Shown here in pieces: positions 2,477-16,971 of a DNA stretch of 20,536 nt. The DNA lies in the NCBI GenBank assembly GCA_019637645.1, contig JAHBVH010000110.1:1-20536 (forward strand), written 5' to 3'. Each line of letters begins with the position of its first letter. The first letter of the stretch is position 1. Made by a program: the position numbers and the translations under genes. The notes under the pieces are model-generated. The model was not told the DNA's origin. It made no database searches and was given only the letters and a program-made list of their open reading frames with translations. This DNA is from Caldilineaceae bacterium (GTDB taxonomy: Bacteria; Chloroflexota; Anaerolineae; Caldilineales; Caldilineaceae).

Positions 2477-3553
2477 ATGGCTACCTTGTCCATTGCCCAA
2501 AAGGCGGTGCTCCCCACAGCCCCCCGCCCCATTGTTAGCATCGGGGCAGGGGGCATCGTTCATGATGCCCACTATCCTGCCTACCAGAAAGCTGGCTTTG
2601 CCGTAGCCGGTCTCTTTGACGCCAAGCCGGAACGCGCCCAATGGATGGCAAGCCACTTCAACGTTCCGACCGTTTATGGCTCCTTGGCCGACGTGGCGGC
2701 CCAAGCTCCCGCCGATGCCATCTTTGATATAGCGGTGCCCGCCAGCCAACTTATCGAAGTGCTGCGCCAACTTCCCAAGGATCGCGCCGTCCTCATTCAA
2801 AAGCCCATGGGCGAGAATCTGGGCCAGGCACGCGAAATTTTGGCACTTTGTCAGGCCAAGCAGCTCACCGCGGCGATCAACTTCCAGATGCGTTGGGCGC
2901 CCTTTATCATTGCGGCGCGCAGCCTGATCGAGCAAGGGCGCATTGGCGAAGTGCATGACATGGAGGTGCGGGTGACGGTCTACACCCCTTGGCATTTGTG
3001 GCCTTTTTTGCAGCAGGTGCCCTATGCCGAGATTCTCTATCACAGCATTCACTACATCGACCTTGTCCGTTCGTTCCTTGGTGAGCCACAGGGCGTCTAT
3101 GCCAAAACGGTACGCCACCCCAAGCTGCCCCAAATGCAGTCGCGCACCAACCTAATCTTCGACTATGGCGACACAGTGCGTTGTAATGTCGAGACGAATC
3201 ATCACCACGAGTATGGCTTGCGCCATCAAGAAAGTTATGTGAAGTGGGAAGGGACCCAAGGCGCGATCATCGCGAAGATGGGGCTGCTCATGAACTATCC
3301 CACTGGCATGCCCGATACTTTTGAATATTGTATGCTAAGGGCCGGCCAGGAGCCCCAATGGCAAACCCTGACGCTGGAGGGTTCCTGGTTCCCCGAAGCC
3401 TTTATCGGCAGCATGGCGAGTTTGATGCGCTACGTCGCTGGCGAAACTGATCAGCTGCCCACCACGGTGGCCGATGCCTTCCAAACCATGGCCGTCGCCG
3501 ACGCCGCCTGTCGCGCCAGCGACACCGGAGCGACCGCCATTTTTACAGAGTAG
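2477..3553 (+). CDS. Gfo/Idh/MocA family NAD(P)-dependent oxidoreductase
   Basis: This 358-residue protein has the family's two-domain layout: an N-terminal Rossmann fold (about 18-125) and a C-terminal alpha/beta substrate domain. The nucleotide loop reads SIGAGGIVHDAH (21-32). The usual EKP motif appears as QKP (K109, P110). The catalytic-region motif YHSIHYIDLVRSFLG (188-202) carries H189, H192 and D195. Family members oxidise or reduce sugars, inositols and related polyols with NAD(P). The ATG at 2477 follows GAGGAAG at 2461, a good ribosome site. It lies 37 bp after the corrinoid-protein gene, so the two are probably co-transcribed. That pairing suggests, as inference only, a methylated sugar or polyol as the physiological substrate. 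The QKP variant keeps the lysine and proline expected for activity. Confidence 0.92.
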   Translation: MATLSIAQKAVLPTAPRPIVSIGAGGIVHDAHYPAYQKAGFAVAGLFDAKPERAQWMASHFNVPTVYGSLADVAAQAPADAIFDIAVPASQLIEVLRQLPKDRAVLIQKPMGENLGQAREILALCQAKQLTAAINFQMRWAPFIIAARSLIEQGRIGEVHDMEVRVTVYTPWHLWPFLQQVPYAEILYHSIHYIDLVRSFLGEPQGVYAKTVRHPKLPQMQSRTNLIFDYGDTVRCNVETNHHHEYGLRHQESYVKWEGTQGAIIAKMGLLMNYPTGMPDTFEYCMLRAGQEPQWQTLTLEGSWFPEAFIGSMASLMRYVAGETDQLPTTVADAFQTMAVADAACRASDTGATAIFTE

Positions 3554-3615
3554 CAGCGGGAGAGCAAGGCAATCTTGTAGGACGTAGAAAGCAGGGTTGA
3601 TCTGTCACCAAAGAG

Positions 3616-3641
3616 CTGACAGGTTTTGGGAAACCTGTCAG
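3616..3641. repeat. Palindromic repeat, copy 1; probable bidirectional terminator
   Basis: A perfect 11-bp inverted repeat (CTGACAGGTTT at 3616-3626, AAACCTGTCAG at 3631-3641) with a TGGG loop. It lies between the convergent 3' ends of the Gfo/Idh gene and an aldo/keto reductase. Closely related copies occur at 7270-7303 and 14578-14610, also between convergent genes. There is no long T-tract, so a terminator role is inferred from position and stem strength. Confidence 0.85.
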
Positions 3642-3677
3642 GTGTGGATGAGTCCGATCCCCGCGCCAAACAGTTTC

Positions 3678-4691
3678 CTATAAACTGGGCATCTTCACGG
3701 CGCTGTTACGCCGTTCATGCATGTTCTCTTCCATAGAGCGGGGATACCGCAGGGGAAGCTGCGAAACGGCGGTTAAGCGGGTGAGCGCTTCCTGGGGCAG
3801 CCGCCAACCGCTGGCGAGGAAATTGTCGCGGGCCTGTTCCACCGTCCGTGCGCCGATAATCGCGCTGGTGATCGCGGGCTGCGCCAAGGCCCAACGCAGG
3901 GCCACTTGAGCCGGACTATGGCCGACGGCTTGCGCCACCGCCAGCAACACGCCCAAGCTTTCATCGGCGTTGGCCGCAAAATAACGTTCAGGATAGGCCC
4001 ACCCCTCCGCCGAACGAGTGCCAGTGGCCGTGCGAGTGCCCGGTTGATACTTGCCAGTGAGAAAGCCGCCCGCCAATGGACTCCAGATCACCACCCCCAG
4101 CCCCTTGAGCTGACAAACCGGGAGGATCTCCTCTTCGATATCACGCACGACCAGGCTATATTGGGGCTGATAGCATTCAAAGCGCGCTAAATTTTTGGTC
4201 TCGCTAAGCCACAGCGCTTCCATTAAACGCCACGCCTCATAATTACTACACGCAATATAACGCACTTTGCCTTGCCGCACGAGATCATCAAAAGCGCGCA
4301 GCATCTCCTCTAGCGGCGTTTGCGTATCGATATGGTGGATGTAGTAAATATCAACATAGTCGGTCTGGAGCCGCGTAAGGCTATCCTCAATGGCCCGCAA
4401 AATATGGACCCGTGACATGCCCGAATCGTTGGGGCCACCGCCCATCGGGTTAAAGACCTTGGTCGCGATGATCGCCGCTTGGCGTCGCCCCTTGAGGGCA
4501 TTGCCCAACAGGATCTCGGATTGGCCACTGCCATAGGCGTTGGCGGTATCGATAAAGTTGACGCCCGCGTCAAAGGCCAGATCCACAATGCGAGTCGCTT
4601 CGGCTTGATCGGTGCCATGCCCAAAGGTCATTGTTCCCAGACAAATTTCCGAAACTTTCAAGCCACTGCGGCCCATTCGACGGTATTCCAT
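3678..4691 (-). CDS. Aldo/keto reductase, Tas/YajO-like subfamily
   Basis: A 337-residue (alpha/beta)8-barrel reductase that would reduce carbonyl compounds with NADPH in the cytoplasm. The AKR catalytic tetrad is complete: D48 and Y53 in FIDTANAYGSGQSE, K78 in IATKVF, and H119 in YYIHHIDTQTP. The opening MEYRRMGRSGLKVSEICLGT is the classic start of this subfamily, and SAIIGARTVEQ near the C-terminus is the conserved cofactor-binding segment. I chose the ATG at 4691 because AAGGAGG lies just upstream. The frame stays open for another 50 codons upstream, but that stretch has no family similarity. The gene is divergent from another AKR at 4970 and convergent with the Gfo/Idh gene, with a palindromic repeat between. 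A weak 6-bp hairpin overlaps its stop codon (3671-3687). The substrate is unknown. Confidence 0.92.
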   Translation of the reverse strand: MEYRRMGRSGLKVSEICLGTMTFGHGTDQAEATRIVDLAFDAGVNFIDTANAYGSGQSEILLGNALKGRRQAAIIATKVFNPMGGGPNDSGMSRVHILRAIEDSLTRLQTDYVDIYYIHHIDTQTPLEEMLRAFDDLVRQGKVRYIACSNYEAWRLMEALWLSETKNLARFECYQPQYSLVVRDIEEEILPVCQLKGLGVVIWSPLAGGFLTGKYQPGTRTATGTRSAEGWAYPERYFAANADESLGVLLAVAQAVGHSPAQVALRWALAQPAITSAIIGARTVEQARDNFLASGWRLPQEALTRLTAVSQLPLRYPRSMEENMHERRNSAVKMPSL

Positions 4692-4892
4692 GCTTTCCTC
4701 CTTGTGGTTGTGGGTTCGGCAACCCATTATCAAGCATTCAAGCTGCAAAAAACGCAGGATTGGTGGTGAGCAGGTTTCATTGTGGCCGATTGTGGATGAT
4801 TCTGCAAAGTCCAGGCAGGAAGATAGACGCGGCCCCAGCACCTTGCTCGCGTGCCAACCGCTTCTATGCTACGGGAATTGGGGAGACGTGAA

Positions 4893-4902
4893 GTATACTG
4901 AC
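4893..4902 (+). promoter_or_regulatory. Possible -10 region for the 2,5-DKG-type reductase
   Basis: TATACT at 4894-4899 lies inside the ten-mer GTATACTGAC. The same ten-mer is the -10 region of the strong promoter at 5817-5845 in front of the next plus-strand gene. No good -35 box is visible. If used, transcription would start near 4906, downstream of the in-frame ATG at 4904, which favours the start codon at 4970. Confidence 0.35.
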
Positions 4903-4969
4903 CATGGCGAACGTAGGACAAAAGTTACATAACACTAGCGTATGCGGTAGCAAACGAAAGGTTGATACC

Positions 4970-5797
4970 ATGACAATCCCAAGCCTCTCCCTCCATGACG
5001 GTTATACGATTCCCCAAATCGGTCTAGGCACCGCCTCGCTCAACGATGAGACGGTTGCTCGTGTGCTCATGACAGCGTTCGAAGCTGGCTACCGCCACAT
5101 CGACACCGCCTATCGCTATGGCAACCAGCGGGGCGTGGGCCAGGGCATCCGCGACAGCGGCCTCCCGCGCGAAGATCTCTTTATCACCACCAAGTTGGAT
5201 GGCGAATTCCAGGGCAATGACCGCGCCGTGGCGGGTCTCGATGAGTGTCTGCAACAGCTCGGGCTGGAGTATGTGGATCTCCTGCTGATCCACTGGCCGC
5301 TGCCCCAGCGCAACGAATATATCGCCACTTGGAAGACCTTTGAAACATTGGCCCAATCGGGCAAGGCGCGGTCGATTGGCGTCTCGAACTTCAAACCGGC
5401 CCATCTCGAGCGGCTGCTGGCCGAGACAACCATCCGCCCTGTCGCCAACCAGATCCAGTTGAGCCCACGCATCACGCGGACTGACCACGTTGAGTACGAC
5501 CGCGCTCATGATATTGTCACCGTGGCGTGGAGCCCATTGGGCGCGGGAAAAGATCTGTTGGCAGAACCGCTGCTCACCCAGATCGGGGCGCGCTATGGCA
5601 AGAGCCCGGCCCAGGTTGTTCTGCGCTGGAATATGGAGCTGGGCATTGTGACGATCCCGCGCTCATCCAACCCCACCCGGTTGGCCGCAAATCTTGCCAT
5701 CTTCGACTTTACGCTCACGGCAGACGAAGTCGCGGCCATCTCTGCCTTGGATGACGGAACGGCGAAACGGGCCGACTCCGACACCGGGGGGCATTGA
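4970..5797 (+). CDS. Aldo/keto reductase, 2,5-diketo-D-gluconate reductase type
   Basis: A 275-residue NADPH-dependent reductase of the AKR5-like group. The tetrad is complete: D45 and Y50 in YRHIDTAYRYGN, K75 in ITTKL, and H108 in LLLIHWPLP. Also visible are the substrate-barrel motif GVSNF and the cofactor motif IPRSSNPTRLAANL, which is typical of the 2,5-DKG reductase branch. I chose ATG 4970 (GAAAGG at 4956-4961) over the in-frame ATG at 4904, because the extra 22 codons look unlike the family and precede the likely transcription start. It belongs to a different AKR branch from its divergent neighbour, so the pair is not a recent duplication. The physiological substrate cannot be told from sequence. 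Confidence 0.93.
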   Translation: MTIPSLSLHDGYTIPQIGLGTASLNDETVARVLMTAFEAGYRHIDTAYRYGNQRGVGQGIRDSGLPREDLFITTKLDGEFQGNDRAVAGLDECLQQLGLEYVDLLLIHWPLPQRNEYIATWKTFETLAQSGKARSIGVSNFKPAHLERLLAETTIRPVANQIQLSPRITRTDHVEYDRAHDIVTVAWSPLGAGKDLLAEPLLTQIGARYGKSPAQVVLRWNMELGIVTIPRSSNPTRLAANLAIFDFTLTADEVAAISALDDGTAKRADSDTGGH

Positions 5798-5816
5798 GGA
5801 ATATAACCGCCTTTGA

Positions 5817-5845
5817 TTGACAATCCGGTGGGGCGTCGGTATACT
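5817..5845 (+). promoter_or_regulatory. Near-consensus sigma70 promoter for the M20 peptidase
   Basis: TTGACA at 5817-5822 and TATACT at 5840-5845 are separated by exactly 17 bp. The expected transcription start is near 5852, giving a leader of about 43 nt before the ATG at 5895. This is one of the two best promoters in the window and implies a housekeeping-sigma, probably constitutive, gene. Confidence 0.8.
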
Positions 5846-5894
5846 GACTTAAAAATAGCACACTGGATAAGATCAACAACGAACTGAGTCAACC

Positions 5895-7265
5895 ATGAAT
5901 GAAACCTTAACCAAAGAACTGGAAACCCAGACCCAAAACTTCAAAGCGCTCATCACTGAGTATTGCCGTCTGGAAAGTGTGGCCGCACAGAATCGGATGA
6001 TGCAAGAGACCGCGGATTGGGTGGAAAATTTGCTCCAAGCGACGGGCTTTACCACCCGCCAACTACAGGTGGCAGGCGCGCCCAACTATGTCTATGGCGA
6101 GATCAAAGGGAAAAGCGATTTCACCCTGTTGCTCTATAACCACTATGACGTGCAGCCGGAAACCCCGATTGAATTGTGGGAAAGTCCCCCGTTTGAGGTG
6201 ACGGAAAAAGAAGGCAAGCTTGTCGCGCGTGGCATCTGCGATAACAAAGCAGAACTGATCTCGCGTATCTGTGCTCTTCGCGCCCTGCAAGCAACACAAG
6301 GCGAATTGCCCATTACCATTAAGTGGATCATTGAAGGCGAAGAAGAGATCGGCAGTACCCACTTCGACGCCATGACCCGTGAGTATGGTGATCTCTTGAA
6401 GACCGATGGGGCGCTCTGGGAAGGGGGCGGCTTTAATGAAAAAGGCCAAGCCGCGCTGGCCTTGGGCTTCCGCGGGATGTTGTATGTCGAGTACAGCGTC
6501 GAAACAATGAAACACGATGCCCATTCTGGTGGAGCTCATAACCTCCCCAGTGCAGCCTGGCGTTTGGTCAAGGCATTGGCAAGCTTAAAGGATGACCATG
6601 GCCGCGTCCTAATTCCCGGCTTCTATGATGATGTGCGCGAGCCCACCGCCATGGAGCAGCAAACCGCCCACGCGAATGTCGATCCAGAACAGGAAGCACG
6701 CGCCAAGGCGATGTATGGTCTGGACACGTTCCTCCACAACCGTAGTGGCTATGAGCTGGAGATTGCCGTCTATGAGCCGACCGCCAACATCGCGGGTTTT
6801 CTCTCTGGCTATACCGAGCCGGGTGTCAAGACTGTGTTGCCAGCCAAAGCCATGGCCAAGATGGATTTTCGGCTGGTGCCCGATCAGCGTCCGGATGATA
6901 TTTTAATGAAATTAAAGGCCCACCTCATCGCCCAAGGCTTTGACGATGTCCAGGTCAAGAAACTTGGCGGCGGTGATCCGGTCGTCACGCCCATTGAAGG
7001 GCCGTTTGTCCAAAAGATTGCGCAGATCTGCCAAGCCTTTACAGAGCAGGAGCCCAAAGTTACTACCCTCGTCGGCGGCACACTGCCGCTGCTCGGCGCG
7101 ATGAAAGAAAATGTTGGGGTGTTGGGCGTTTCCACGTCGGGCAACCCGGCCTACTATGGCAGCGGTGCCCACGCCCCCAATGAGCATATTCGGGTGCGCG
7201 ATATTCCGCGGGCGATTGAATTCAATATGTTTATGTTCACCCAGTTAGGTGAAACACAGGCATAA
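5895..7265 (+). CDS. M20/M28-fold zinc dipeptidase or deacylase, M20A-like
   Basis: A 456-residue cytoplasmic metallohydrolase of the M20 family (CNDP/ArgE/DapE relatives), which cleaves dipeptides or N-acyl amino acids with two metal ions. Visible active-site elements are H83 and D85 in YNHYDVQP, D116 in RGICDNKAE, the EGEEEIGS motif with E149 and E150 as catalytic base and metal ligand, D171 in the TDGAL segment, and H426 in GAHAPNEHI. The dimerisation domain sits between about 198 and 315 and contains the conserved HDAHSGG (207-213). Length matches the 450-470-residue M20 dipeptidase group. The ribosome site is weak (CTGAG about 7 nt before ATG), while the promoter is strong. The gene ends 4 bp before palindromic repeat copy 2. 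The exact substrate is not determinable. Confidence 0.93.
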   Translation: MNETLTKELETQTQNFKALITEYCRLESVAAQNRMMQETADWVENLLQATGFTTRQLQVAGAPNYVYGEIKGKSDFTLLLYNHYDVQPETPIELWESPPFEVTEKEGKLVARGICDNKAELISRICALRALQATQGELPITIKWIIEGEEEIGSTHFDAMTREYGDLLKTDGALWEGGGFNEKGQAALALGFRGMLYVEYSVETMKHDAHSGGAHNLPSAAWRLVKALASLKDDHGRVLIPGFYDDVREPTAMEQQTAHANVDPEQEARAKAMYGLDTFLHNRSGYELEIAVYEPTANIAGFLSGYTEPGVKTVLPAKAMAKMDFRLVPDQRPDDILMKLKAHLIAQGFDDVQVKKLGGGDPVVTPIEGPFVQKIAQICQAFTEQEPKVTTLVGGTLPLLGAMKENVGVLGVSTSGNPAYYGSGAHAPNEHIRVRDIPRAIEFNMFMFTQLGETQA

Positions 7266-7269
7266 GCTC

Positions 7270-7303
7270 ACACTTGACAGGTTTTCAAAAACCTGTCAAG
7301 TGT
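7270..7303. repeat. Palindromic repeat, copy 2; probable bidirectional terminator
   Basis: A perfect 16-bp inverted repeat (ACACTTGACAGGTTTT at 7270-7285, AAAACCTGTCAAGTGT at 7288-7303), separated by two bases. It sits 4 bp after the M20 peptidase stop and 45 bp from the 3' end of the convergent alkyltransferase-like gene. The inner core matches copies 1 and 3. Confidence 0.87.
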
Positions 7304-7348
7304 ATAGGCTCCATCTGCTTGTTAGCTTCTCTAACCCAGGCAACAGCC

Positions 7349-7732
7349 CTAGAACAACGCTCCCTGTTCAGGCTCATCTTCAGAGCCAGGGCCTTGCCAC
7401 TGGTAGCGCTTGAGCTCAACCCTATCCTTCACAAAGACGATGCCCTCTTGTTCCAAGAGCCGACGTTGGCGTTCCGCACCAGCTCTTTGGCTGATCTTGC
7501 CTTGGGCGTTGATGACCCGTTGCCACGGCACGTCCGGAGGGCAGGCGGCCATGGCATCACCAACCCAGCGCGGGCTCCATGCCTTGTACACCTCCGGCTC
7601 AACCCCCGCAGGCAATGGCAACAGGTGAGCAAGTTGGCCGTAGGTTGCCACCTTGCCCTGTGGCACCTGGCGGGCGAGCTGCCAAACTTGTTCATTATAA
7701 TATTGTTGGTTCGGCGGGGCGGGATATTGCAT
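7349..7732 (-). CDS. Alkyltransferase-like protein (ATL), MGMT family without catalytic cysteine
   Basis: A 127-residue protein consisting of the DNA-binding domain of O6-alkylguanine-DNA alkyltransferases. The family helix-turn-helix is clear (GKVATYGQLAHLL, about 26-38; PRWVGDAM, about 54-61). The active-site PCHRV of true alkyltransferases reads PWQRV here, so tryptophan replaces the methyl-accepting cysteine. Known ATL proteins carry the same type of change: they bind alkylated guanine without repairing it and hand the lesion to nucleotide-excision repair. NAQGKIS follows as in the family. The ATG at 7732 is preceded by GAGGAG. The gene lies 52 bp after the AraC gene on the same strand and may be the last gene of that run. 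The role in lesion recognition is inferred from the family. Confidence 0.92.
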   Translation of the reverse strand: MQYPAPPNQQYYNEQVWQLARQVPQGKVATYGQLAHLLPLPAGVEPEVYKAWSPRWVGDAMAACPPDVPWQRVINAQGKISQRAGAERQRRLLEQEGIVFVKDRVELKRYQWQGPGSEDEPEQGALF

Positions 7733-7784
7733 CGGTGCTCCTCTCCATCATCCTGGACCACATGGGGATCCAATGCCCTGTCCA

Positions 7785-8807
7785 TCAAAGGCTGCTGGCC
7801 TTGGCACCCCGCCACTGGCCAGGTGATAGCCCTTCCCACTGCTGGAATGCCCGATGAAATGAACTAGCTTCTTTGTAGCCAAGCAGAAACGCAATTTCAG
7901 TCAGCGCTAGCGATGATGCTTGCAAATACTCCTTAGCCAGCTCATGCCGCACCGTTTCCAAGAGTTGGTAAAAAGACAATCCTTCCTCTGCTAACCGGCG
8001 TTGCAAAGTCCGTGTACTCATCATCAGTTCACTTGCAATCTCCTGTACCGTTGGTAATCCGCCAGCGATGCGATTCCGAATTAACCACTTCACCTGGTCG
8101 ATTACGTGGGGAGGAATGATCCGGTTGCGTCGTTCTGTCTCCAGTTGTGGCTCGATCAGGGCCAGCAGATCTGGGTTGGCCGTCACAAAAGGCTGCATGA
8201 TGACCGCATGGCTAAAGACCAACCGGTCGCAGCTAGCCGAAAAATCAACCGGGCAGTGAAAATAGTCTTCGTACAGGGAGCGATGCGCCTCATCACGGCG
8301 TAACATGACGTGTGTAGGATAGAATAACTGCCCAGTGCCCTGTTGCCCAACTTCGACGATATGGGCGAAGGAGGCATCGATCAACCGGGGCGGTGGTAGC
8401 TGCGCCGTTGCCAGCCATATCACTTCGATATGCCATTCGCTCCGGTGGCTGGCAACCTGGAGATCTTCCGCGCTGAAGAGACGCTTGTAGCGCGCGATCT
8501 TGTGCAATGCGGCGTGGAAGGAAGGCGCCGAGAGGGCGGTGATCATCAGCGCGTCATAGGGCGCGCCGCGCATCAAGCGTGGCAGCTTCAAGCCAAACGC
8601 CGGGTCATCCACATAGCTATCCAGCGCGGCCCACAGCGCAAACCATTGTGCGGTCGTCACCACCATCGATTCTTGTTGGAGCAGGGTAGCTGGCAGACGT
8701 GCGCGGTGCAGAAGCTCCGCCAACGAGAAGCCACTATCCTTGATGCGGGCGAGCACGGCGTGTGATAAGCGAATCCGATCCTGTGGGTGGGCAGATGCGA
8801 CAGTCAT
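7785..8807 (-). CDS. AraC family transcriptional regulator, OruR-like two-domain type
   Basis: A 340-residue regulator. The N-terminal about 200 residues resemble the arabinose-binding-type sensor domain found in OruR/ArgR-like AraC proteins (FALWAALDSYVDDPAFGLKL; SFHAALHKIARYKRLFSAED). The C-terminal about 95 residues carry the double helix-turn-helix: VQEIASELMMSTRTLQRRLAEEG for the first, and ALTEIAFLLGYKEASSFHRAFQ for the second with its AraC signature. It starts 13 bp after the SDR gene stop on the same strand, with only a weak ribosome site (AAGGAC). It is therefore most likely co-transcribed with the SDR gene and may control it. The inducer is unknown. Confidence 0.92.
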   Translation of the reverse strand: MTVASAHPQDRIRLSHAVLARIKDSGFSLAELLHRARLPATLLQQESMVVTTAQWFALWAALDSYVDDPAFGLKLPRLMRGAPYDALMITALSAPSFHAALHKIARYKRLFSAEDLQVASHRSEWHIEVIWLATAQLPPPRLIDASFAHIVEVGQQGTGQLFYPTHVMLRRDEAHRSLYEDYFHCPVDFSASCDRLVFSHAVIMQPFVTANPDLLALIEPQLETERRNRIIPPHVIDQVKWLIRNRIAGGLPTVQEIASELMMSTRTLQRRLAEEGLSFYQLLETVRHELAKEYLQASSLALTEIAFLLGYKEASSFHRAFQQWEGLSPGQWRGAKASSL

Positions 8808-8820
8808 TCCGATTTTGTCC

Positions 8821-9852
8821 TTACCGATTTTTCACTAAGCCAAAGCGCACCAAGCTCTCCGCGGTGGCGACAATCGTCTCTTCATTCGAGCGCGGCTGCC
8901 AGTCGAGGAGTTGGTGCGCCTTGGCATTGCTCGCATGGCGCACCTGGCCCAATTCACGGAGGAGAGGTTGCGCCGAGGCACTGAAACGCGCCACCAAGCG
9001 TACTAACCAGTCGGGCAGGGGGCGCGTCGGCACGCGTTGTGCCACTGGGCCAAGCTCGCGCTTCAAAACGTAGACTAGCTCCTGCAAGGTGATGCTTTTG
9101 TCGCTGGCCGCAATCAACCGTTCACCATTGGCCGCGGGATGGGTCATGGCGCGCAAATGCAGATCGACCACATCGCGCACATCAACCATCGTCACGGATA
9201 TGCGTGGAACCGCGGGAAGGGCACCATTCAGCAAAAGCTGCATAATCTCGATCGTGGCGGCAAAATCTCGCCCAAGCACGGGGCCGAAGATCCCAACTGG
9301 GTTGACAACCGCAAGCTCCAGCCCATCCCCTTCACGCGCGATAAAATCCCAGGCCGCCTGTTCAGCCAATGTTTTAGATTTCATATACGGGTTGACATCG
9401 CCATGGATATCCGTCCACATCTCTTCAGAAAAGGGGCGAGTGGTTGGCCTATGCCCATACGCAATGGCAACAAACGATGAGGTCATCACAACACGTTTCA
9501 CCCCTGCGTCGCGCGCGGCCCGCAACACGCGCAGGGTGCCATCGCGTGCGGGAATAATGACATCATCTTCGTCTTTGGGCGTGCTGAATGGAAAAGGTGA
9601 CGCGACATGGAGCACGTAATCACACCCAGCCACAGCCGTAGGCCAGTTCGCATCATCAGTAAGATCGGCGGCCATGAAGGAAAGGTCACCGTTTTGCGCG
9701 CCGCCTTCCTTGAGCATTGCCCGCACATCCGCTTCCCGCGCTAGCGAACGTACTGTTGTTCGCACCCGATAGCCAGCATTCAAAAGCTGTACGATACTAT
9801 GCGCACCGACAAAGCCTGATCCGCCTGTCACTAGCACTAGTTCACCACTCAT
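8821..9852 (-). CDS. Extended SDR, dihydroflavonol-4-reductase/cinnamoyl-CoA-reductase-like
   Basis: A 343-residue NAD(P)-dependent reductase of the extended short-chain dehydrogenase type. The nucleotide motif TGGSGFVG is at 9-16, the catalytic serine in VVMTSSF at S125/S126, and the YxxxK pair in NPYMKSK at Y156/K160. The segments LHVASPFP and NPVGIFGPVLG are typical of the DFR/CCR-like group, whose bacterial members reduce assorted aldehydes and ketones. I chose ATG 9852 because AGGAGGT lies just upstream and because the glycine motif then falls at the usual distance from the N-terminus. An 11-residue-longer start at 9885 is less likely. It leads the minus-strand run SDR, AraC, ATL with gaps of 13 and 52 bp. 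A TATAAT lies about 48 bp upstream. Confidence 0.93.
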   Translation of the reverse strand: MSGELVLVTGGSGFVGAHSIVQLLNAGYRVRTTVRSLAREADVRAMLKEGGAQNGDLSFMAADLTDDANWPTAVAGCDYVLHVASPFPFSTPKDEDDVIIPARDGTLRVLRAARDAGVKRVVMTSSFVAIAYGHRPTTRPFSEEMWTDIHGDVNPYMKSKTLAEQAAWDFIAREGDGLELAVVNPVGIFGPVLGRDFAATIEIMQLLLNGALPAVPRISVTMVDVRDVVDLHLRAMTHPAANGERLIAASDKSITLQELVYVLKRELGPVAQRVPTRPLPDWLVRLVARFSASAQPLLRELGQVRHASNAKAHQLLDWQPRSNEETIVATAESLVRFGLVKNR

Positions 9853-9899
9853 ACAAGACCTCCTGCTTTTTTCTCCTAGTTTCATAGATTGCTATTACT

Positions 9900-9905
9900 A
9901 TTATA
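9900..9905 (-). promoter_or_regulatory. Possible -10 box for the SDR-AraC-ATL run
   Basis: On the minus strand this reads TATAAT, 47 bp before the SDR start codon. The -35 region at 16-18 bp spacing is poor (ATGACT-like), which would fit a promoter that needs an activator, such as the AraC protein of the same run. That regulatory link is inference. Confidence 0.4.
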
Positions 9906-9983
9906 GAAGCATAAGCAGGGTCAGTCATTAGCACAGCATGCCACACTATTCGCACTGTGCGCCACTTTAGGGCAGTGGATAGT

Positions 9984-10469
9984 TCAGTGACGCCCGAGCC
10001 AGCGCCGAACACTCGTCGCGTAGTGCTTATAGTGCCCACCAAACTTGGCGGCGAGATACCGTTCTTCCGGCGCAATCAGCAGATAATGACAAGCAACCAA
10101 GGCTGGCAATAGAAAAATTAGCCCCCAAGGCCAATTGATGGCGAAAGCAATGCCAGCCAAAACCACGCTACCGCCGAGATAAAGCGGATTCCGCGAAATA
10201 GCAAAAACACCGGTTGTGACCAGTTCACTGGTTGGCTGACCAGGGTCGGTCGGTTGCCCTTGGCGTGCCAACGCTCGCCGCGCCAGAACAACAAAGGTGA
10301 GCCCCGTCAGAATCAGTGGCGCGCCTAGCGGGATCAGTACTGACATGAACAGACCACGCGGAAATGCAAGCGGCATCGTCCAGTGTAGCGCAATGGCAAG
10401 TAAGCATGGCAAGCCAAAGACCACCTCGAAAATTTGCCACCAGCGCTTGTGGGCTGCATCCGTTGTCAT
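9984..10469 (-). CDS. Isoprenylcysteine carboxyl methyltransferase-like integral membrane protein
   Basis: A 161-residue membrane protein with about four hydrophobic helices (roughly 12-30, 41-63, 97-111 and 113-131). The conserved ICMT/PEMT-type block is present: GVFAISRNPLYLGG (88-101), then PEERYLAAKFGGHYKHY (134-150), the S-adenosylmethionine-binding region of this family. Bacterial members methylate unknown small molecules or lipids, and the name does not imply prenylated protein substrates. The ATG at 10469 follows AAGGAG at 9-nt spacing. The 75 codons open upstream are rejected because they are proline- and arginine-rich and lack family similarity. The gene is divergent from the MarR gene, whose product could regulate it from the shared 231-bp gap, though that is inference. 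Confidence 0.88.
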   Translation of the reverse strand: MTTDAAHKRWWQIFEVVFGLPCLLAIALHWTMPLAFPRGLFMSVLIPLGAPLILTGLTFVVLARRALARQGQPTDPGQPTSELVTTGVFAISRNPLYLGGSVVLAGIAFAINWPWGLIFLLPALVACHYLLIAPEERYLAAKFGGHYKHYATSVRRWLGRH

Positions 10470-10533
10470 AGGTTGCGCTCCTTCCCAATCGAGAAAATAA
10501 CGCCCTGAATCGCAGGAAGCACACGCTAGCAAA

Positions 10534-10562
10534 ACCTTACTCCTTTCTTTTGCCTTTGTCAA
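10534..10562 (-). promoter_or_regulatory. Possible promoter of the ICMT-like gene
   Basis: On the minus strand a perfect TTGACA (10562-10557) is followed after 17 bp by TAAGGT (10539-10534), a poor -10 box. The position, 65-90 bp upstream of the gene and divergent from the MarR promoter, is sensible. Confidence 0.35.
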
Positions 10563-10665
10563 TCCCGCTGCGCGCCCGCGCGCCAGTGGCAGGGCCTTTC
10601 GCAATGAACCGGGCAAATGACACAAACCGGCGGGAAAACACCTACAGAACGCAAACAGAGAAAGC

Positions 10666-10694
10666 TTGACAAAATAAGTTCTCTGCTGTATCAT
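10666..10694 (+). promoter_or_regulatory. Sigma70 promoter of the MarR gene, probably leaderless
   Basis: TTGACA at 10666-10671 and TATCAT at 10689-10694 are separated by exactly 17 bp. The expected start of transcription, about 7 bp past the -10 box, falls on the A of the ATG at 10701. No ribosome-binding sequence precedes that ATG, which agrees with a leaderless message. Confidence 0.75.
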
Positions 10695-10706
10695 TCATAC
10701 ATGAAT
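10693..10706. promoter_or_regulatory. Palindromic operator candidate over the MarR start site
   Basis: ATTCAT-AC-ATGAAT is a perfect palindrome with 6-bp arms. It overlaps the end of the -10 box, the predicted transcription start and the first two codons of the MarR gene. MarR proteins commonly repress their own promoter from such sites, so autoregulation is likely but unproven. Confidence 0.5.
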
Positions 10707-11159
10707 AAAAGTGAACCCGTCCAAGCCTGTGACCCCTATGCGCTGATCGAAGTGCTCATGCACAGCAGCAAGGCCATCGAACTTCGGCTAGACGCAGCGT
10801 TAGCGCCGGTTGGGATCTCGGCCACCAAATGGAAGGCATTGCGCCATCTGACCGAGGCTGGCGGACAACTCACCTTGGGCCAGCTTGCCGAACGGCTTTC
10901 GTGTGTGAAATCCAACGCAACCCAGTTGGTCGATCGGTTAGCCACAGAGCAACTGGTCCGACGTGTGCCTGATCCCCTCGACCGGCGCATTATTTTGGCA
11001 GAGCTAACCCCGGCAGGCCAACAACGTTATACCGAAGGCTTAGTCGTGGTCAAAGCATTTGAACGTGAGTTCTTTGGCGCTTTTCAAGAAGAGGAACGGA
11101 TCTTATTGCACAGACTGCTAGAACGACTGAGTGGCTTTACACCAGCCGCCGCGGCGTAA
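10701..11159 (+). CDS. MarR family transcriptional regulator
   Basis: A 152-residue winged helix-turn-helix regulator with the full MarR layout. N-terminal and C-terminal dimerisation helices flank the DNA-binding core: ATKWKALRHLTEAG, then LTLGQLAERLSCVKSNATQLVDRLATEQLV (about 57-87), and the wing RRVPDPLDRRIILAELTPAG (87-106). The ATG at 10701 gives the normal family length. The upstream in-frame ATG at 10617 precedes the promoter and cannot be used from it. Two cysteines (C10 and C68) are present. An N-terminal cysteine is the sensor in OhrR-type members, but the surrounding sequence is not clearly OhrR-like. The next plus-strand genes are two flavoenzyme genes, probable targets, with an inverted repeat between. 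The ligand is unknown. Confidence 0.93.
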   Translation: MNKSEPVQACDPYALIEVLMHSSKAIELRLDAALAPVGISATKWKALRHLTEAGGQLTLGQLAERLSCVKSNATQLVDRLATEQLVRRVPDPLDRRIILAELTPAGQQRYTEGLVVVKAFEREFFGAFQEEERILLHRLLERLSGFTPAAAA

Positions 11160-11206
11160 AGGGCAAGAAACGGGATCTATTTTTCCCCCATTGTTCATAT
11201 ATGCAC

Positions 11207-11222
11207 TGTACACAATTGTACA
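11207..11222. promoter_or_regulatory. Inverted repeat TGTACA-N4-TGTACA, candidate operator
   Basis: Two copies of the self-complementary hexamer TGTACA are separated by CAAT, about 115 bp upstream of the LLM-oxidase gene in an AT-rich patch. The size and symmetry suit a dimeric regulator, for example the neighbouring MarR protein. It is unlike the palindrome over the MarR start, so a different regulator is equally possible. Confidence 0.4.
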
Positions 11223-11266
11223 AATTTCAGCATTATCAGGAGTCACGTGCAAAGGTTGCTCGGTCA

Positions 11267-11286
11267 GCGCTAGCGTTGCCTAGCGC
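11267..11286 (+). promoter_or_regulatory. Stem-loop in the leader of the LLM-oxidase gene
   Basis: GCGCTAG (11267-11273) and CTAGCGC (11280-11286) form a perfect 7-bp stem with a CGTTGC loop, 50 bp before the start codon. It has no T-tract. It may shape the leader RNA or be a protein-binding site. The 176-bp gap otherwise shows no clear -35/-10 pair. Confidence 0.3.
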
Positions 11287-11335
11287 CTATGTTCTGTCGC
11301 TGTAACCATGCGACCTGGAAAGGAAGCATACGATC

Positions 11336-13603
11336 ATGAATTACGGTCATCCCTTGACCTTTGGTACATTTATTACACCGCGCAACCACGAACCCGAAGC
11401 CGTTGTCGCATTGGCACGCCAAAGTGAAGCACTAGGCTATGATCTGGTGACCTTCCAGGATCATCCCTACCAGCCAGCCTTTCTCGATACCTGGACCCTC
11501 ATGAGTTGGGTGGCCGGCCAGACGGAGCGGATCCACCTGGCCGCCAATGTACTCAATCTGCCGCTGCGCGCCCCGGCGGTTTTGGCCCGCTCCGCCGCGA
11601 CGCTTGACTTGCTTTCCGGCGGTCGGCTCGATCTCGCCCTGGGCGCGGGGGCCTTTTGGGATGCCATCGCGGCCATGGGCGGGCGCCGCTTATCTCCGGG
11701 TGCAGCAGTGGACGCGCTCAGCGAAGCCATTGATATCATCCGCGGCATATTGGATGCTGCCGAGACAACGCCCTTGCACTTCCCTGGGCAATACTATCAG
11801 GTGAATGGGGCAAAGCGCGGACCGGCGCCAGCCCACGACATTCCCCTTTGGTTGGGTGCGTATAAGCCGCGCATGCTGCGGCTGATCGGGCAGAAGGCCA
11901 ATGGCTGGCTGCCTTCGCTGCCCTACCTAAAGCCAGGGGAGTTGGCCGCGGGCCAGCAACGGATTGATGAGGCGGCGCGAGAGGCAGGTCGTGATCCCCG
12001 CGAGATCCGCCGCCTGCTGAATATTACGGGCAAGTTTTCGGCTACACCGGGTGGTTTGCTGGAGGGGCCGAGCGAGAAATGGATAGACGACCTCCTGCCG
12101 CTTGTGATCGAGCAAGGCGTGGGCACCTTCATTCTCATGATCGATGATCAAGGCACCCTGGCACAGTTTGCCAACGAGGTGGCCCCAGCCTTGCGCGAAG
12201 CCGTACAGCGTGAACTGCCCCAACTCGGGGTTGGGCCACAGATCCGCCAGACCGCGGCGCGGGCCAAACGCCGCGCCGGAATCGATTACGACGGCATTTC
12301 GCCGCTGCTAGCCACGGCAGTGATCGAGCCGGGCGATACCGCCTATGCCCGCGTCAAATCGACCTACATGCGGGGCGGTTCACCGGGGCTCGTTTTCCAA
12401 GTGGAAGATACGGCACAAGTCGTTGCCGCGTTGGCCTTTGCGCGGCAGCACCCTGCTCTGCCGCTCTCGATTCGGAGTGGTGGTCATGGCATCAGTGGCC
12501 GCTCTACCAACAAAGATGGGCTGGTGATTGATCTAAAGAAGCTAAACATCATTGAGGTTATCGATCCGGCCACCCGCCGCGTGCGCATTGGGCCAGGCGC
12601 ACGCTGGATGGATGTAGCCGCGGCGTTAGCCCCGCATGGTTGGGCGCTGAGTTCTGGTGACTATGGCGGTGTGGGCGTGGGCGGGCTGGCCACTGCGGGC
12701 GGGATCGGCTTTCTGGCCCGTGACCATGGCCTGACCATTGATCATCTGCGCGCCGTCGAGATGGTGTTGGCCGACGGTTCGGTGGTACGGGCAGACGATG
12801 AGATCAACGCCGATCTCTTTTGGGCAGTGCGTGGTGCTGGGGCCAACTTTGGCATTGTCACAGCCTTTGAATTTGAAGTAGACGAGGTTCACAATGTGGG
12901 CTGGGCCACCTTTCTCTATGATGCCAAGGAGCCGGCGCGTCTACTAGAAAAGTGGGGCGCGGCGGTGGAAGCATCCCCGCGCGATCTGACCAGCTTTCTC
13001 ATCATGGGGCCACCCCGGCGCGGGCAGCCCAGCATTGCCCAAGCCATGGTCATGGTCAATGCCGACGATCCCACCACGATTGTGAATCGGCTGCAACCCT
13101 TGGCGAACGTCGCGCCGCTCTATGATTATAATGCGGCGATCATGCCCTATGCGACGGTCATGGCCAATGCCCAGGATATGGATCATAATGGCATTGGCGA
13201 GCCGACGGCACGGTCAGGATTGCTCGAGCATATTACACCAGAATTTGCGGCAGCCGCCGCGCAGTTGCTCGAAAGCGGTGCCGTCTATTTCTTTCAGCTC
13301 CGCTCGGTGGGCGGGGCGGTGGCCGACGTTGCGCCAGAGGCAACGGCCTACGGCTATCGGTCGGCCAATTTCAGCGTGATTGGCTTTGGTGCGCCCAAGG
13401 CGCGGGTGAATGCCGCGTGGGAGCCCTTGCAACCACACTTTAATGGGCTTTACCTCAACTTTGAAACCGATCTGCGGCCCGAACGGATCCAGGATGCCTT
13501 CCCGCCCGCGACGCTCGAACGGCTTCGGGCCTTGAAACGCCGCTATGATCCGGATAATGTTTTTCGCGATAACTTTAACATTGCGCCAGTCTTGCAGGCG
13601 TAA
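11336..13603 (+). CDS. Fusion of luciferase-like oxidoreductase (LLM) and FAD-dependent berberine-bridge-type oxidase
   Basis: A 755-residue, apparently cytoplasmic two-flavin protein. Residues about 6-290 are an LLM TIM-barrel domain (VTFQDHPYQP at 38-47, NVLNLPLRAPAV, LDLLSGGRLDLALGAG at 90-105, GAYKPRML), a family using FMN or F420. After a basic linker (about 295-320), residues about 325-520 form a PCMH-type FAD domain and residues about 520-755 the substrate domain ending in the BBE signature YDPDNVFRDNFNI (737-749). The covalent-FAD histidine is present (RSGGH, H384). The cysteine that gives the second link in bicovalent members is Y443 (GDYGGVGVGG), so single attachment is expected. 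The family oxidises alcohols or carbohydrates and passes electrons to oxygen, giving peroxide. A paralogue of the LLM half follows after 25 bp. One uninterrupted frame argues against a sequencing join. Confidence 0.92.
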   Translation: MNYGHPLTFGTFITPRNHEPEAVVALARQSEALGYDLVTFQDHPYQPAFLDTWTLMSWVAGQTERIHLAANVLNLPLRAPAVLARSAATLDLLSGGRLDLALGAGAFWDAIAAMGGRRLSPGAAVDALSEAIDIIRGILDAAETTPLHFPGQYYQVNGAKRGPAPAHDIPLWLGAYKPRMLRLIGQKANGWLPSLPYLKPGELAAGQQRIDEAAREAGRDPREIRRLLNITGKFSATPGGLLEGPSEKWIDDLLPLVIEQGVGTFILMIDDQGTLAQFANEVAPALREAVQRELPQLGVGPQIRQTAARAKRRAGIDYDGISPLLATAVIEPGDTAYARVKSTYMRGGSPGLVFQVEDTAQVVAALAFARQHPALPLSIRSGGHGISGRSTNKDGLVIDLKKLNIIEVIDPATRRVRIGPGARWMDVAAALAPHGWALSSGDYGGVGVGGLATAGGIGFLARDHGLTIDHLRAVEMVLADGSVVRADDEINADLFWAVRGAGANFGIVTAFEFEVDEVHNVGWATFLYDAKEPARLLEKWGAAVEASPRDLTSFLIMGPPRRGQPSIAQAMVMVNADDPTTIVNRLQPLANVAPLYDYNAAIMPYATVMANAQDMDHNGIGEPTARSGLLEHITPEFAAAAAQLLESGAVYFFQLRSVGGAVADVAPEATAYGYRSANFSVIGFGAPKARVNAAWEPLQPHFNGLYLNFETDLRPERIQDAFPPATLERLRALKRRYDPDNVFRDNFNIAPVLQA

Positions 13604-13628
13604 TTCTGACAAGAAGGGAACCGCTAAC

Positions 13629-14573
13629 ATGAGTACGTCTACTTCTATTGCCCAACCCAAACGCGCTTCCGTGGCGGATTACGGGCACGATCTGCTCTTT
13701 GGCACCTTTATCACGCCGGTTGTACAACCGACAATGCAGGCCGTCGAATTGGCCGTGGTGGCTGATCGAGCCGGGCTGGACCTGGTGACCTTTCAGGATC
13801 ATCCCTATCAGCCAACCTTCTATGACGCCTGGACCTTGTTAGCGTTCGTAGCCTCACGCACCCAGCAGATCCGGGTGAGTACCAACGTTCTGAACCTGCC
13901 ATTGCGACAGCCCGCGGTCATCGCGCGCAGCGCGGCCAGCCTGGATCTCCTCAGTGGGGGCCGCTTTGAATTGGGCATTGGAGCCGGGGCTTTTTGGGAC
14001 GCAATTGTTGCCATGGGCGAGCGCCGGTTAACCCCTGGCGAATCCATTGCCGCGCTGGAAGAAGGTATTACGATCATTCGGGAAATCTGGGCCACCGACA
14101 AGCCGGGTGGGGTCCGGGTTACTGGGCAACACTATCAGGTGAAGGGAGCTAAGCGCGGTCCGGCACCAGCACACGCGATGGAGATCTGGGTTGGCGCGTA
14201 CAAACCCCGGATTCTAAACCTTACCGGGCGGCTTGCCGATGGTTGGCTGCCCAGTCTAACTTATATTGAAGGTGGCGTATCAGCCATCAAAGCGATGAAT
14301 CAACGCATTGACGAGGGTGCCACCGAGGCTGGCCGCGACCCGGCTGCGATCCGCCGTCTACTGAATATTTCAGGGCGCTTCACCCGCGCTGGGCAATCCT
14401 TCTTGAATGGGCCGCCCCAACAGTGGGCTGAAGAGCTGGCTGGGCTCACCATCGACTATGGGATCAGTGCGTTCATCCTGGCTGCCGATGACGCGCCAAC
14501 CATCGAGCTGTTCGCCGCGGAGGTTGCCCCTGCTACCCGCGAACTTGTCGCGGCCGCACGGGCAGCTGGATAA
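13629..14573 (+). CDS. LLM class flavin-dependent oxidoreductase
   Basis: A 314-residue luciferase-like TIM-barrel protein, the stand-alone paralogue of the N-terminal half of the preceding fusion protein. By eye the two share more than half of their residues, including the blocks DLVTFQDHPYQP, NVLNLPLR, SLDLLSGGR/TLDLLSGGR, GAGAFWDAI, GAKRGPAPAH, RIDE and IRRLLNI. Family members use reduced FMN or F420 for monooxygenation or hydride transfer. Sequence alone does not separate the two cofactors here. I chose ATG 13629 (AAGGGA upstream). It begins 25 bp after the fusion gene stop, so the two form an operon and may form a heteromeric barrel pair, as luciferase alpha and beta chains do. That pairing is inference. 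The stop is followed within 5 bp by palindromic repeat copy 3. Confidence 0.93.
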   Translation: MSTSTSIAQPKRASVADYGHDLLFGTFITPVVQPTMQAVELAVVADRAGLDLVTFQDHPYQPTFYDAWTLLAFVASRTQQIRVSTNVLNLPLRQPAVIARSAASLDLLSGGRFELGIGAGAFWDAIVAMGERRLTPGESIAALEEGITIIREIWATDKPGGVRVTGQHYQVKGAKRGPAPAHAMEIWVGAYKPRILNLTGRLADGWLPSLTYIEGGVSAIKAMNQRIDEGATEAGRDPAAIRRLLNISGRFTRAGQSFLNGPPQQWAEELAGLTIDYGISAFILAADDAPTIELFAAEVAPATRELVAAARAAG

Positions 14574-14577
14574 AAAT

Positions 14578-14610
14578 AACCCTGTCAGGTTTGTAAAACC
14601 TGACAGGGTT
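14578..14610. repeat. Palindromic repeat, copy 3; probable bidirectional terminator
   Basis: A perfect 15-bp inverted repeat (AACCCTGTCAGGTTT at 14578-14592, AAACCTGACAGGGTT at 14596-14610) with a GTA loop. It lies between the convergent 3' ends of the LLM gene and katG. Compared with copies 1 and 2, one internal base pair is flipped (T-A for A-T), so pairing is kept. Confidence 0.87.
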
Positions 14611-14647: not shown

Positions 14648-14673
14648 AAGCGTGCGTTTGCAAACGCACGCTT
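14648..14673 (-). terminator. katG terminator hairpin
   Basis: A perfect 26-bp palindrome: AAGCGTGCGTTTG at 14648-14660 meets its exact complement CAAACGCACGCTT at 14661-14673. It begins 6 bp after the katG stop codon and, read in the katG direction, is followed by a short T run (TTTG). The strength and position fit an intrinsic terminator despite the short T-tract. It is unrelated in sequence to the neighbouring palindromic repeat. Confidence 0.65.
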
Positions 14674-14679
14674 GCTCAC

Positions 14680-16971
<2,292 letters not shown>

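Follow-up and report, generated by a model that had tools for sequence, protein, structure and literature searches.

The 20,536-nucleotide stretch of DNA analyzed here, referred to throughout as the window (coordinates are positions within it), carries three short palindromes, each lying between the 3' ends of convergent genes. They are perfect inverted repeats at 3616-3641 (11-bp arms and a loop of 4), 7270-7303 (16-bp arms and a loop of 2) and 14578-14610 (15-bp arms and a loop of 3); on recomputation, the positions and the stem lengths of 11, 16 and 15 bp agree exactly with those given in a first-pass annotation of the sequence. That annotation had also assigned the three palindromes to one sequence family, and in full register they are indeed copies of a single element, 34, 34 and 33 bp long, with no strand assigned to any of them. 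Copy 1 (3612-3645) reads AGAGCTGACAGGTTT-TGGG-AAACCTGTCAGGTGT; in this 34-bp register its arms are 15 bp long and contain 2 mismatched outer pairs, while the inner 11-bp stem at 3616-3641 is perfect. Copy 2 (7270-7303) reads ACACTTGACAGGTTT-TCAA-AAACCTGTCAAGTGT and copy 3 (14578-14610) reads AACCCTGTCAGGTTT-GTA-AAACCTGACAGGGTT. Both have perfect arms, with 0 mismatches; their departures from the family consensus number 2 in copy 2 and 3 in copy 3, in each case on both arms. The family to which these copies belong, its spread among related genomes and the paired changes of its arms are the subject of this report.

The six genes flanking the palindromes were assigned by Pfam to families that agree with the names they had first been given. 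At the first junction, a gene for a Gfo/Idh/MocA-family oxidoreductase (2477-3553, plus strand) converges on one for an aldo/keto reductase (AKR) family protein (3678-4727, minus strand), and copy 1 lies 58 bp past the Gfo/Idh stop and 32 bp past the AKR stop. The second junction is formed by an M20-family peptidase gene (5895-7265, plus strand) and a gene for a protein with the DNA-binding domain of O6-methylguanine DNA methyltransferase (7349-7732, minus strand), called ATL in the earlier reading; copy 2 begins 4 bp past the stop codon of the peptidase. At the third junction, a luciferase-like monooxygenase (LLM) family gene (13671-14573, plus strand) faces a gene for a peroxidase-domain protein with two domains (14680-16782, minus strand), called katG in the earlier reading, and copy 3 again begins 4 bp past a stop codon, that of the LLM protein. 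The stop positions at these junctions (3553/3678, 7265/7349 and 14573/14680) agree with the convergent placement described earlier. A fourth convergent pair, 18596/18616, leaves a spacer of 19 bp, which is too narrow for a copy, as had been pointed out, and palindromes are present at three of the four convergent junctions of the window. A T-rich tail is present in just one of the window copies, copy 3, and on one strand only: ATTTTTAT comes after the stem on the minus strand and gives the copy a terminator-like appearance towards katG.

The window contains 4 perfect hairpins with arms of at least 11 bp and loops of at most 8, whereas by the same criterion 40 first-order Markov randomizations of it contained 0.05 on average and never more than 1; three palindromes at convergent junctions far exceed chance. 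The predicted folding of the three stems is stable (z of -3.7 to -7.6), and a search of the window with Rfam at the gathering threshold matched no family. The fourth perfect hairpin, at 14648-14673, is a 26-bp palindrome, AAGCGTGCGTTTGCAAACGCACGCTT, that shares the third junction with copy 3 and is unrelated to it in sequence; it sits 6 bp behind the katG stop.

The family statistics given below come from related genomes and not from the window's own genome. The window Gfo/Idh protein is most closely related to proteins from Chloroflexi metagenome-assembled genomes (MAGs), with identities of 68 and 63%, and after these come mainly proteins from Anaerolineae MAGs. The formate-tetrahydrofolate ligase of the window is 84% identical to that of genome G001 and 79-80% identical to those of G127, G344, G381 and G396, and these five genomes all belong to one order. 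The window comes from an Anaerolineae-type Chloroflexota and, judged by these two proteins, probably from the order of G127 and G344; Caldilineaceae names among further matches suggest that this order is Caldilineales. An AraC-type protein, when used as a probe of relatedness, gave weak and uninformative matches in 11 of 46 genomes. Of the 10 genomes from which the Gfo/Idh-related loci come, 1 contains the exact 20-base palindrome. Close relatives of the window genome may lack the family, because G001, the nearest of those 10, has just one match even to a loose pattern for the inner stem (CAGGTTT and AAACCTG separated by 1-8 bases).

Across many genomes, the consensus of the family is ~34 bp long and reads AGACCTGACAGGTTT-N3/4-AAACCTGTCAGGTCT, with GCC or GGC at the middle in the copies of G127 and G344. 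Of 396 genomes from the class, 179 contain the loose pattern, with as many as 258 matches in one genome, compared to 43 (by hand count) and as many as 68 matches for a reversed control pattern; the count of 179 overstates the family, since the pattern also catches tRNA genes and other palindromes. The loose-pattern copies inspected in G128, for instance, mostly have AGAAACC or AGAATCC outer arms, and GTAGGGGCAGG stems are found elsewhere. When outer arm sequence and pairing were considered, 13 of the 30 loose-pattern loci returned were family-like. Matches number 43 in G127 and 27 in G344, where all 49 inspected copies are family-like; in G271 the corresponding fraction is 23 of 28 matches, all 28 of which entered the placement count. 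A stricter pattern (ACCTNNCAGGTTT and its complement), applied to Bacteroidota and Cyanobacteria, found 44 copies in 9 of 99 Bacteroidota genomes and none in 117 Cyanobacteria genomes. The central dinucleotide is mostly fixed within a Bacteroidota genome, being CA in G423 (10 of 11 copies), AA in G432 (4 of 4) and G436 (8 of 9), and GA in G433 (14 of 15). The exact GA form is also present in 10 stretches from a viral collection (L081-L090), 8 of them family-like.

The family is found in many Anaerolineae genomes and in some Bacteroidota, and its many scattered copies in the Anaerolineae relatives bear out the initial description of a dispersed palindrome like the repetitive extragenic palindromes (REPs). 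Most G127 and G344 copies have flanks that are unrelated right up to the 34-bp core. These unrelated flanks speak against simple duplication of one locus, an origin against which the first-pass annotation had already argued. Two clustered arrangements were noticed in passing: three exact palindrome copies 51 bp apart in the viral-collection stretch L088, and five family palindromes ~490 bp apart, with alternating repeated flanks, on contig C165 of G433 (L299 9397-11386). No description of this palindrome family was found in the literature searched, outside which most subscription journals lie, and queries with the stem words as strings, or on Chloroflexi palindromes, terminators and convergent genes, returned nothing relevant there.

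The placement of copies was scored in stretches chosen around known copies, 20 each from G127, G344 and G271 and 20 from four Bacteroidota genomes together, with genes called by our own codon-usage script and not by a published caller. The 49 copies of G127 and G344 comprise 14 in convergent, 18 in tandem and 4 in divergent spacers, 12 in called genes and 1 at a contig edge. Confinement to convergent junctions, as first proposed, is thus a property of the window that does not extend to its relatives. Convergent spacers are over-used in these two genomes, holding 14 of 36 intergenic copies but ~11% of the intergenic bases (gaps of at least 40 bp). Copies also gather at gene ends: 22 of the 36 intergenic copies lie at most 20 bp past a stop codon where ~3 would be expected (G127, 9 of 15 with 1.4 expected; G344, 13 of 21 with 1.7 expected). 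Among the Bacteroidota, the counts are 3 of 8 in G423 and 5 of 7 in G436 (0.7 expected in each), 1 of 2 in G432 and 0 of 3 in G433 (0.2 expected in each). The expected preference for gene 3' ends is accordingly seen in G127, G344, G423 and G436 but not in G271 (2 of 22, with 2.1 expected), and because of this last genome post-stop placement is not universal.

We scored a T-rich tail as at least 5 T in the 8 bases strictly past the stem, and counted a copy as near a stop when it lay within 60 bp of one. Such tails follow 8 of 34 near-stop copies in G127 and G344, 4 of 12 copies farther away and none of the 12 in genes, against a background of 13 in 242. In the Bacteroidota the tails follow 7 of 16 near-stop copies and 1 of 16 farther copies (background, 28 of 133), and in G271 they follow 1 of 10 near-stop copies (background, 14 of 115). 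G423 has copies flanked by A and T. A minority of copies resemble ready terminators, and intrinsic termination, sometimes in both directions, is a probable role of some T-tailed intergenic copies. The terminator role originally suggested for the palindromes is in this way partly supported, and not for the copies inside genes.

The 12 in-gene copies of G127 and G344 are all read in frame, with all three frames in use, and encode the peptides DLPGFxKPGRS, TCQVSENLAGL or RPARFSETWQV. Their freedom from stop codons follows from the gene calling, in which a frame-breaking copy would be counted as intergenic, and 10 of the 12 are firmer than the others, the open reading frame (ORF) at L187 8696 being doubtful and the copy at L183 8702 lying at a protein N-terminus. 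Called genes also contain 4 of the 28 matches in G271 and 3 of 27 copies in the Bacteroidota. In a four-carbon sugar kinase, the element supplies residues 234-245, the linker between Pfam domains at 5-223 and 250-392. It lies shortly N-terminal of the catalytic domains in an isochorismate synthase, in DnaE2 and in a methyltransferase, and falls within Pfam domains in two further proteins, in a GH95 N-terminal domain and a histidine-kinase ATPase domain. Pfam gave no domain match in one of the seven element-bearing proteins.

At one site, in dnaE2, the filled and empty states could be compared as DNA. At the place where the gene of G344 carries the 34-bp palindrome, that of G354 (85% identity in the matched part) reads CAAACATCGGACGAG; the net difference is +30 bp, and at this sole site so compared there is no target duplication. 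Among more distant dnaE2 orthologues, four have the short linker and two have other linkers. The palindrome in the G127 gene is of the same length as that in G344 and differs from it two-sidedly at 4 stem pairs and one-sidedly at 1. Four of the seven closest full-length homologues of the GH95 protein have no element, and the net gain there is two residues; isochorismate synthases with and without the element are nearly equal in length (a change of ~0). Insertion is clear in dnaE2, and elsewhere the native linker has been replaced or has shrunk. A further dispersed repeat, around NADEHRWRRIEEGNGTRMTRIEQIKADLIRANPPFPRHPR, lies in frame in a dnaE2 gene (L202 3255-6530, DnaE2 residues ~857-895) and has many matching sites in G371, G401 and other genomes. 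A repeat somewhat similar to it, NTDERGWEDEGKD, and different from the palindrome, occupies in the dnaE2 gene of G381 exactly the place of the G344 palindrome. P0241, a homologue of the GH95 protein of L192, has an extra insertion of ~30 residues inside the palindrome-encoded peptide.

The joint change of both arms, which had been read from the three window copies, was scored in the stem at its 8 outer pairs. The inner seven, by which the copies had been found, are uninformative and were excluded. In a first sample, 109 of 119 copies from relatives remained after duplicates and edge copies were dropped. Of their 872 cells, 787 are consensus, 53 are two-sided changes, 29 are one-sided (9 of these G-T) and 3 are otherwise broken, so that two-sided changes far outnumber one-sided ones. 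A second sample consisted of the 43 of 49 G127 and G344 copies with 4-base loops (31 of them distinct). Here 98.3% of cells pair, there are 21 two-sided cells compared to 3.1 on shuffling and 1-6 with the partner column slid, and the covariation is 0.160 compared to 0.033. That the stem itself is maintained, as had been argued at the outset, is borne out by these counts.

The sugar-kinase gene allows the arms to be followed over deep divergence, the element being kept in 22 of 22 examined homologues of the clade. Its outer residues co-vary (DL..R in 15, EL..S in 3, DP..G in 2, EP..G in 1 and DV..T in 1), and each of these combinations can be encoded by a perfect palindrome according to a codon reading, with the DNA seen for four. 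In the loop, residues G and P are exchanged for each other even between sisters with good branch support (P0015/P0018 and P0004/G344), which forces at least 3 changes. At the DNA level, two orthologues have as their loops TTTCGGAAAA and its exact reverse complement, TTTTCCGAAA, and a comparison of four orthologues gives one two-sided arm change (C-G to G-C) and one that is one-sided. Protein selection does not demand such linkage between the arms, and the loop inversion has no obvious reason at the RNA level; templating of one arm on the other, or conversion by a further copy, whichever way it is oriented, would explain both. Quasipalindrome correction by template switching is a documented type of mutation (PMC3820800), and for the coding palindromes of nematomorph mitochondria either conversion of the arms or template switching has been put forward (PMC6649704), as far as the accessible parts of these two papers go.

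Several known systems resemble the family in part; the comparisons that follow draw on the accessible portions of the papers cited. REPs are palindromes of 20-40 bp with many dispersed copies, mostly <20 bp behind genes, in tandem and convergent spacers, and some lie in frame inside genes, dnaE2 included; GTAG repeats are mentioned there from Chloroflexi and CGTC repeats from Bacteroidetes (Di Nocera et al. 2013, PMC3733652). The family described here shares their size, dispersal, in-frame copies and post-gene placement in tandem and convergent spacers (the last not in G271), but it has no unpaired GTAG or CGTC tag, and its association with REP-associated tyrosine transposases (RAYTs) is at best weak. 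Rickettsia palindromic elements (RPEs) are likewise in-frame palindromic insertions in unrelated protein genes, but they are ~150 bp long (PMC10969869), whereas our family is ~34 bp long, mostly intergenic and found in other phyla; moreover, R. conorii RPEs end in CGTC (PMC3733652), which is absent from our family. The SPRITE elements of Streptococcus pneumoniae are dispersed hairpins with an 18-bp duplex near gene 3' ends, are thought to have been co-opted as terminators and, like our family in this respect, have no abundance of partial copies. They differ in sequence, in phylum and in a long T-rich tract, and in-frame copies or paired arm changes are not described for them in the accessible text (PMC3049150). 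Nematomorph mitochondria carry perfect inverted repeats in coding genes, with arms kept identical, although these repeats are up to 284 bp long, belong to animal mitochondria and are not described, in that part of the source, as a single dispersed family (PMC6649704). The DNA uptake sequences (DUS) of Neisseria are short repeated words that form terminator-like hairpins (PMC3049150), but a single arm of our family is near chance in most stretches tested. The family would seem from these comparisons to be a new member of the dispersed bacterial palindromic repeats, resembling REPs, RPEs and SPRITEs but without their tags.

We consider it probable that the family is a dispersed, noncoding, untagged hairpin of ~34 bp, similar to REPs, RPEs and SPRITEs and shared by Anaerolineae and some Bacteroidota kin, and that its arms are kept matched by correction or conversion at the DNA level. 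New copies would arise at new sites as genome-specific variants of the consensus and would survive where the hairpin is least harmful, either shortly past a stop codon or, read in frame, in the linker of a protein; some T-tailed intergenic copies would be tolerated or co-opted as terminators, sometimes two-way ones. The hairpin would be processed as DNA, with one arm templating the correction of the other by quasipalindrome template switching or, by an alternative route, with other copies converting an arm, and loop inversion can result. It is because of this proposed processing that the arms would stay complementary. The element may persist selfishly. A bolder version is that a transposase-free element of two phyla persists by its own hairpin chemistry, in which templating between the arms makes the stem perfect, flips the loop and rewrites host codons, leaving coupled non-synonymous changes in linkers without benefit to host RNA or protein; we would put this forward tentatively and think it rather unlikely.

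A number of observations weigh against the untagged, DNA-corrected hairpin that we favor. We observed no transposition event and found no mobilizer in the genomes studied. G271 has more solo arms than expected (AGACCTGACAGG, 7 compared to 0.03), and its copies are not associated with stops. The dnaE2 palindromes of G401 and G406 have decayed, with 3 and 5 arm mismatches, and 6 of the 22 sugar-kinase homologues have an inner-arm residue change for which no partner change is visible. Given the small net length changes in the GH95 protein and isochorismate synthase, simple insertion is not demonstrated in either. Because the search for copies required the inner stem to be perfect, decayed copies are under-counted; furthermore, the paired changes could reflect the spread of ready-made variants.

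A different account would make the palindrome a lineage-specific, bidirectional intrinsic terminator, the stem of which is selected as an RNA hairpin and the paired changes of which are ordinary compensatory evolution. The copies past stops in four genomes, the T-tails of near-stop copies in G127 and G344 and in the Bacteroidota, the A- and T-flanked copies of G423 and the stable window stems all fit this account, but the 12 in-frame copies, none of them T-tailed, do not, yet those examined show the same paired changes. Neither stop preference nor an excess of tails is seen in G271, and in the window the tail is limited to one strand of one copy; we therefore hold the terminator account to be unlikely. 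If the hairpin is instead a unit of DNA uptake or protein binding, with the single arm as the signal and hairpins secondary, as for the Neisseria DUS, then the conserved outer ACCT/AGGT block and the genome-specific dinucleotides could be likened to dialects, and the excess of solo arms in G271 would be accounted for. Arm words outside hairpins are nevertheless mostly near chance in G127 and G344 (GCCAGGTTT, 7 seen and 9.7 expected), some longer ones being slightly up (CTGCCAGGTTT, 3 compared to 0.7 expected), and 16 of the 20 Bacteroidota stretches are also near chance, which leaves such a signal highly improbable.

Two further accounts invoke a transposase. A classical REP mobilized by a RAYT (Y1) transposase would match the published REPs (PMC3733652, accessible part) in size, dispersal, distance of <20 bp from 3' ends, preference for tandem and convergent spacers, and in-frame copies, including one in dnaE2. 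Y1_Tnp matches are present in 22 of 24 copy-rich genomes, picked by loose-pattern count, and in 24 of 36 copy-free ones (p 0.03 by Fisher's test). The RAYT link raised in the first-pass annotation survives only as this weak association, confounded with genome size, since copy-rich genomes are larger (median of 5.35 compared to 3.7 Mb), and the copy-rich G271 and G433 have no Y1 match. Twenty of the listed Y1 loci, 134 kb in all, contain no family palindrome, although by density only about one would be expected in them, and GTAG or CGTC tags are not above shuffled expectation: GTAG occurs in 0 of 98 flanks, and in sets of 98, 46 and 50 flanks the tags and their complements were each found 0-4 times (0.4-2.4 expected on shuffling), the top excess being GACG with 4 compared to 1.4. 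We regard mobilization by a RAYT as quite improbable. Slightly less credible still is that the copies are fragments of miniature inverted-repeat transposable elements (MITEs) moved by an insertion sequence (IS)-type transposase, with the hairpin as the center of a longer inverted-repeat element and solo copies as remnants. Many of the 15 copies inspected in G191 (stretches L122-L136) are indeed central in a longer repeated hairpin, several with CTAAG/CTTAG on both sides, and four G127 copies share longer, diverged flanks, but the flanks of most G127 and G344 copies are unrelated right up to the core and the dnaE2 site has no target duplication.

Other hairpins were noticed in these genomes. 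G127 and G344 contain a second dispersed family of perfect palindromes, AGAAGTTCGACTTTTC-n-GAAAAGTCGAACTTCT, with 19 copies by pattern in L170-L209 (e.g., L190 17958, L199 10096 and L189 14354); none is in a called gene, 5 are in divergent spacers, and two-sided variants (AGTCCGACTT) are found. The same two genomes have locus-specific perfect intergenic hairpins with arms of 20-35 bp (L171, L173, L183, L187, L205 and L206), which far exceed the usual length of a terminator. In stretch L131 of G191, the core palindrome of our family is the center of a second, unrelated longer hairpin.

The two-phylum spread of the family, its mostly genome-specific central dinucleotides and its lack of an end tag raise the question of how so short an element travels. 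The family also offers a natural test of a long-standing question, namely, whether dispersed bacterial palindromes are preserved through selection acting on RNA structure or through correction of the arms at the DNA level. These two explanations can be separated because the same hairpin is present in coding and noncoding DNA and in orthologues at many distances. The paired arm changes, first seen by eye in the three copies of the window, are confirmed, and they are the most interesting aspect of the finding.

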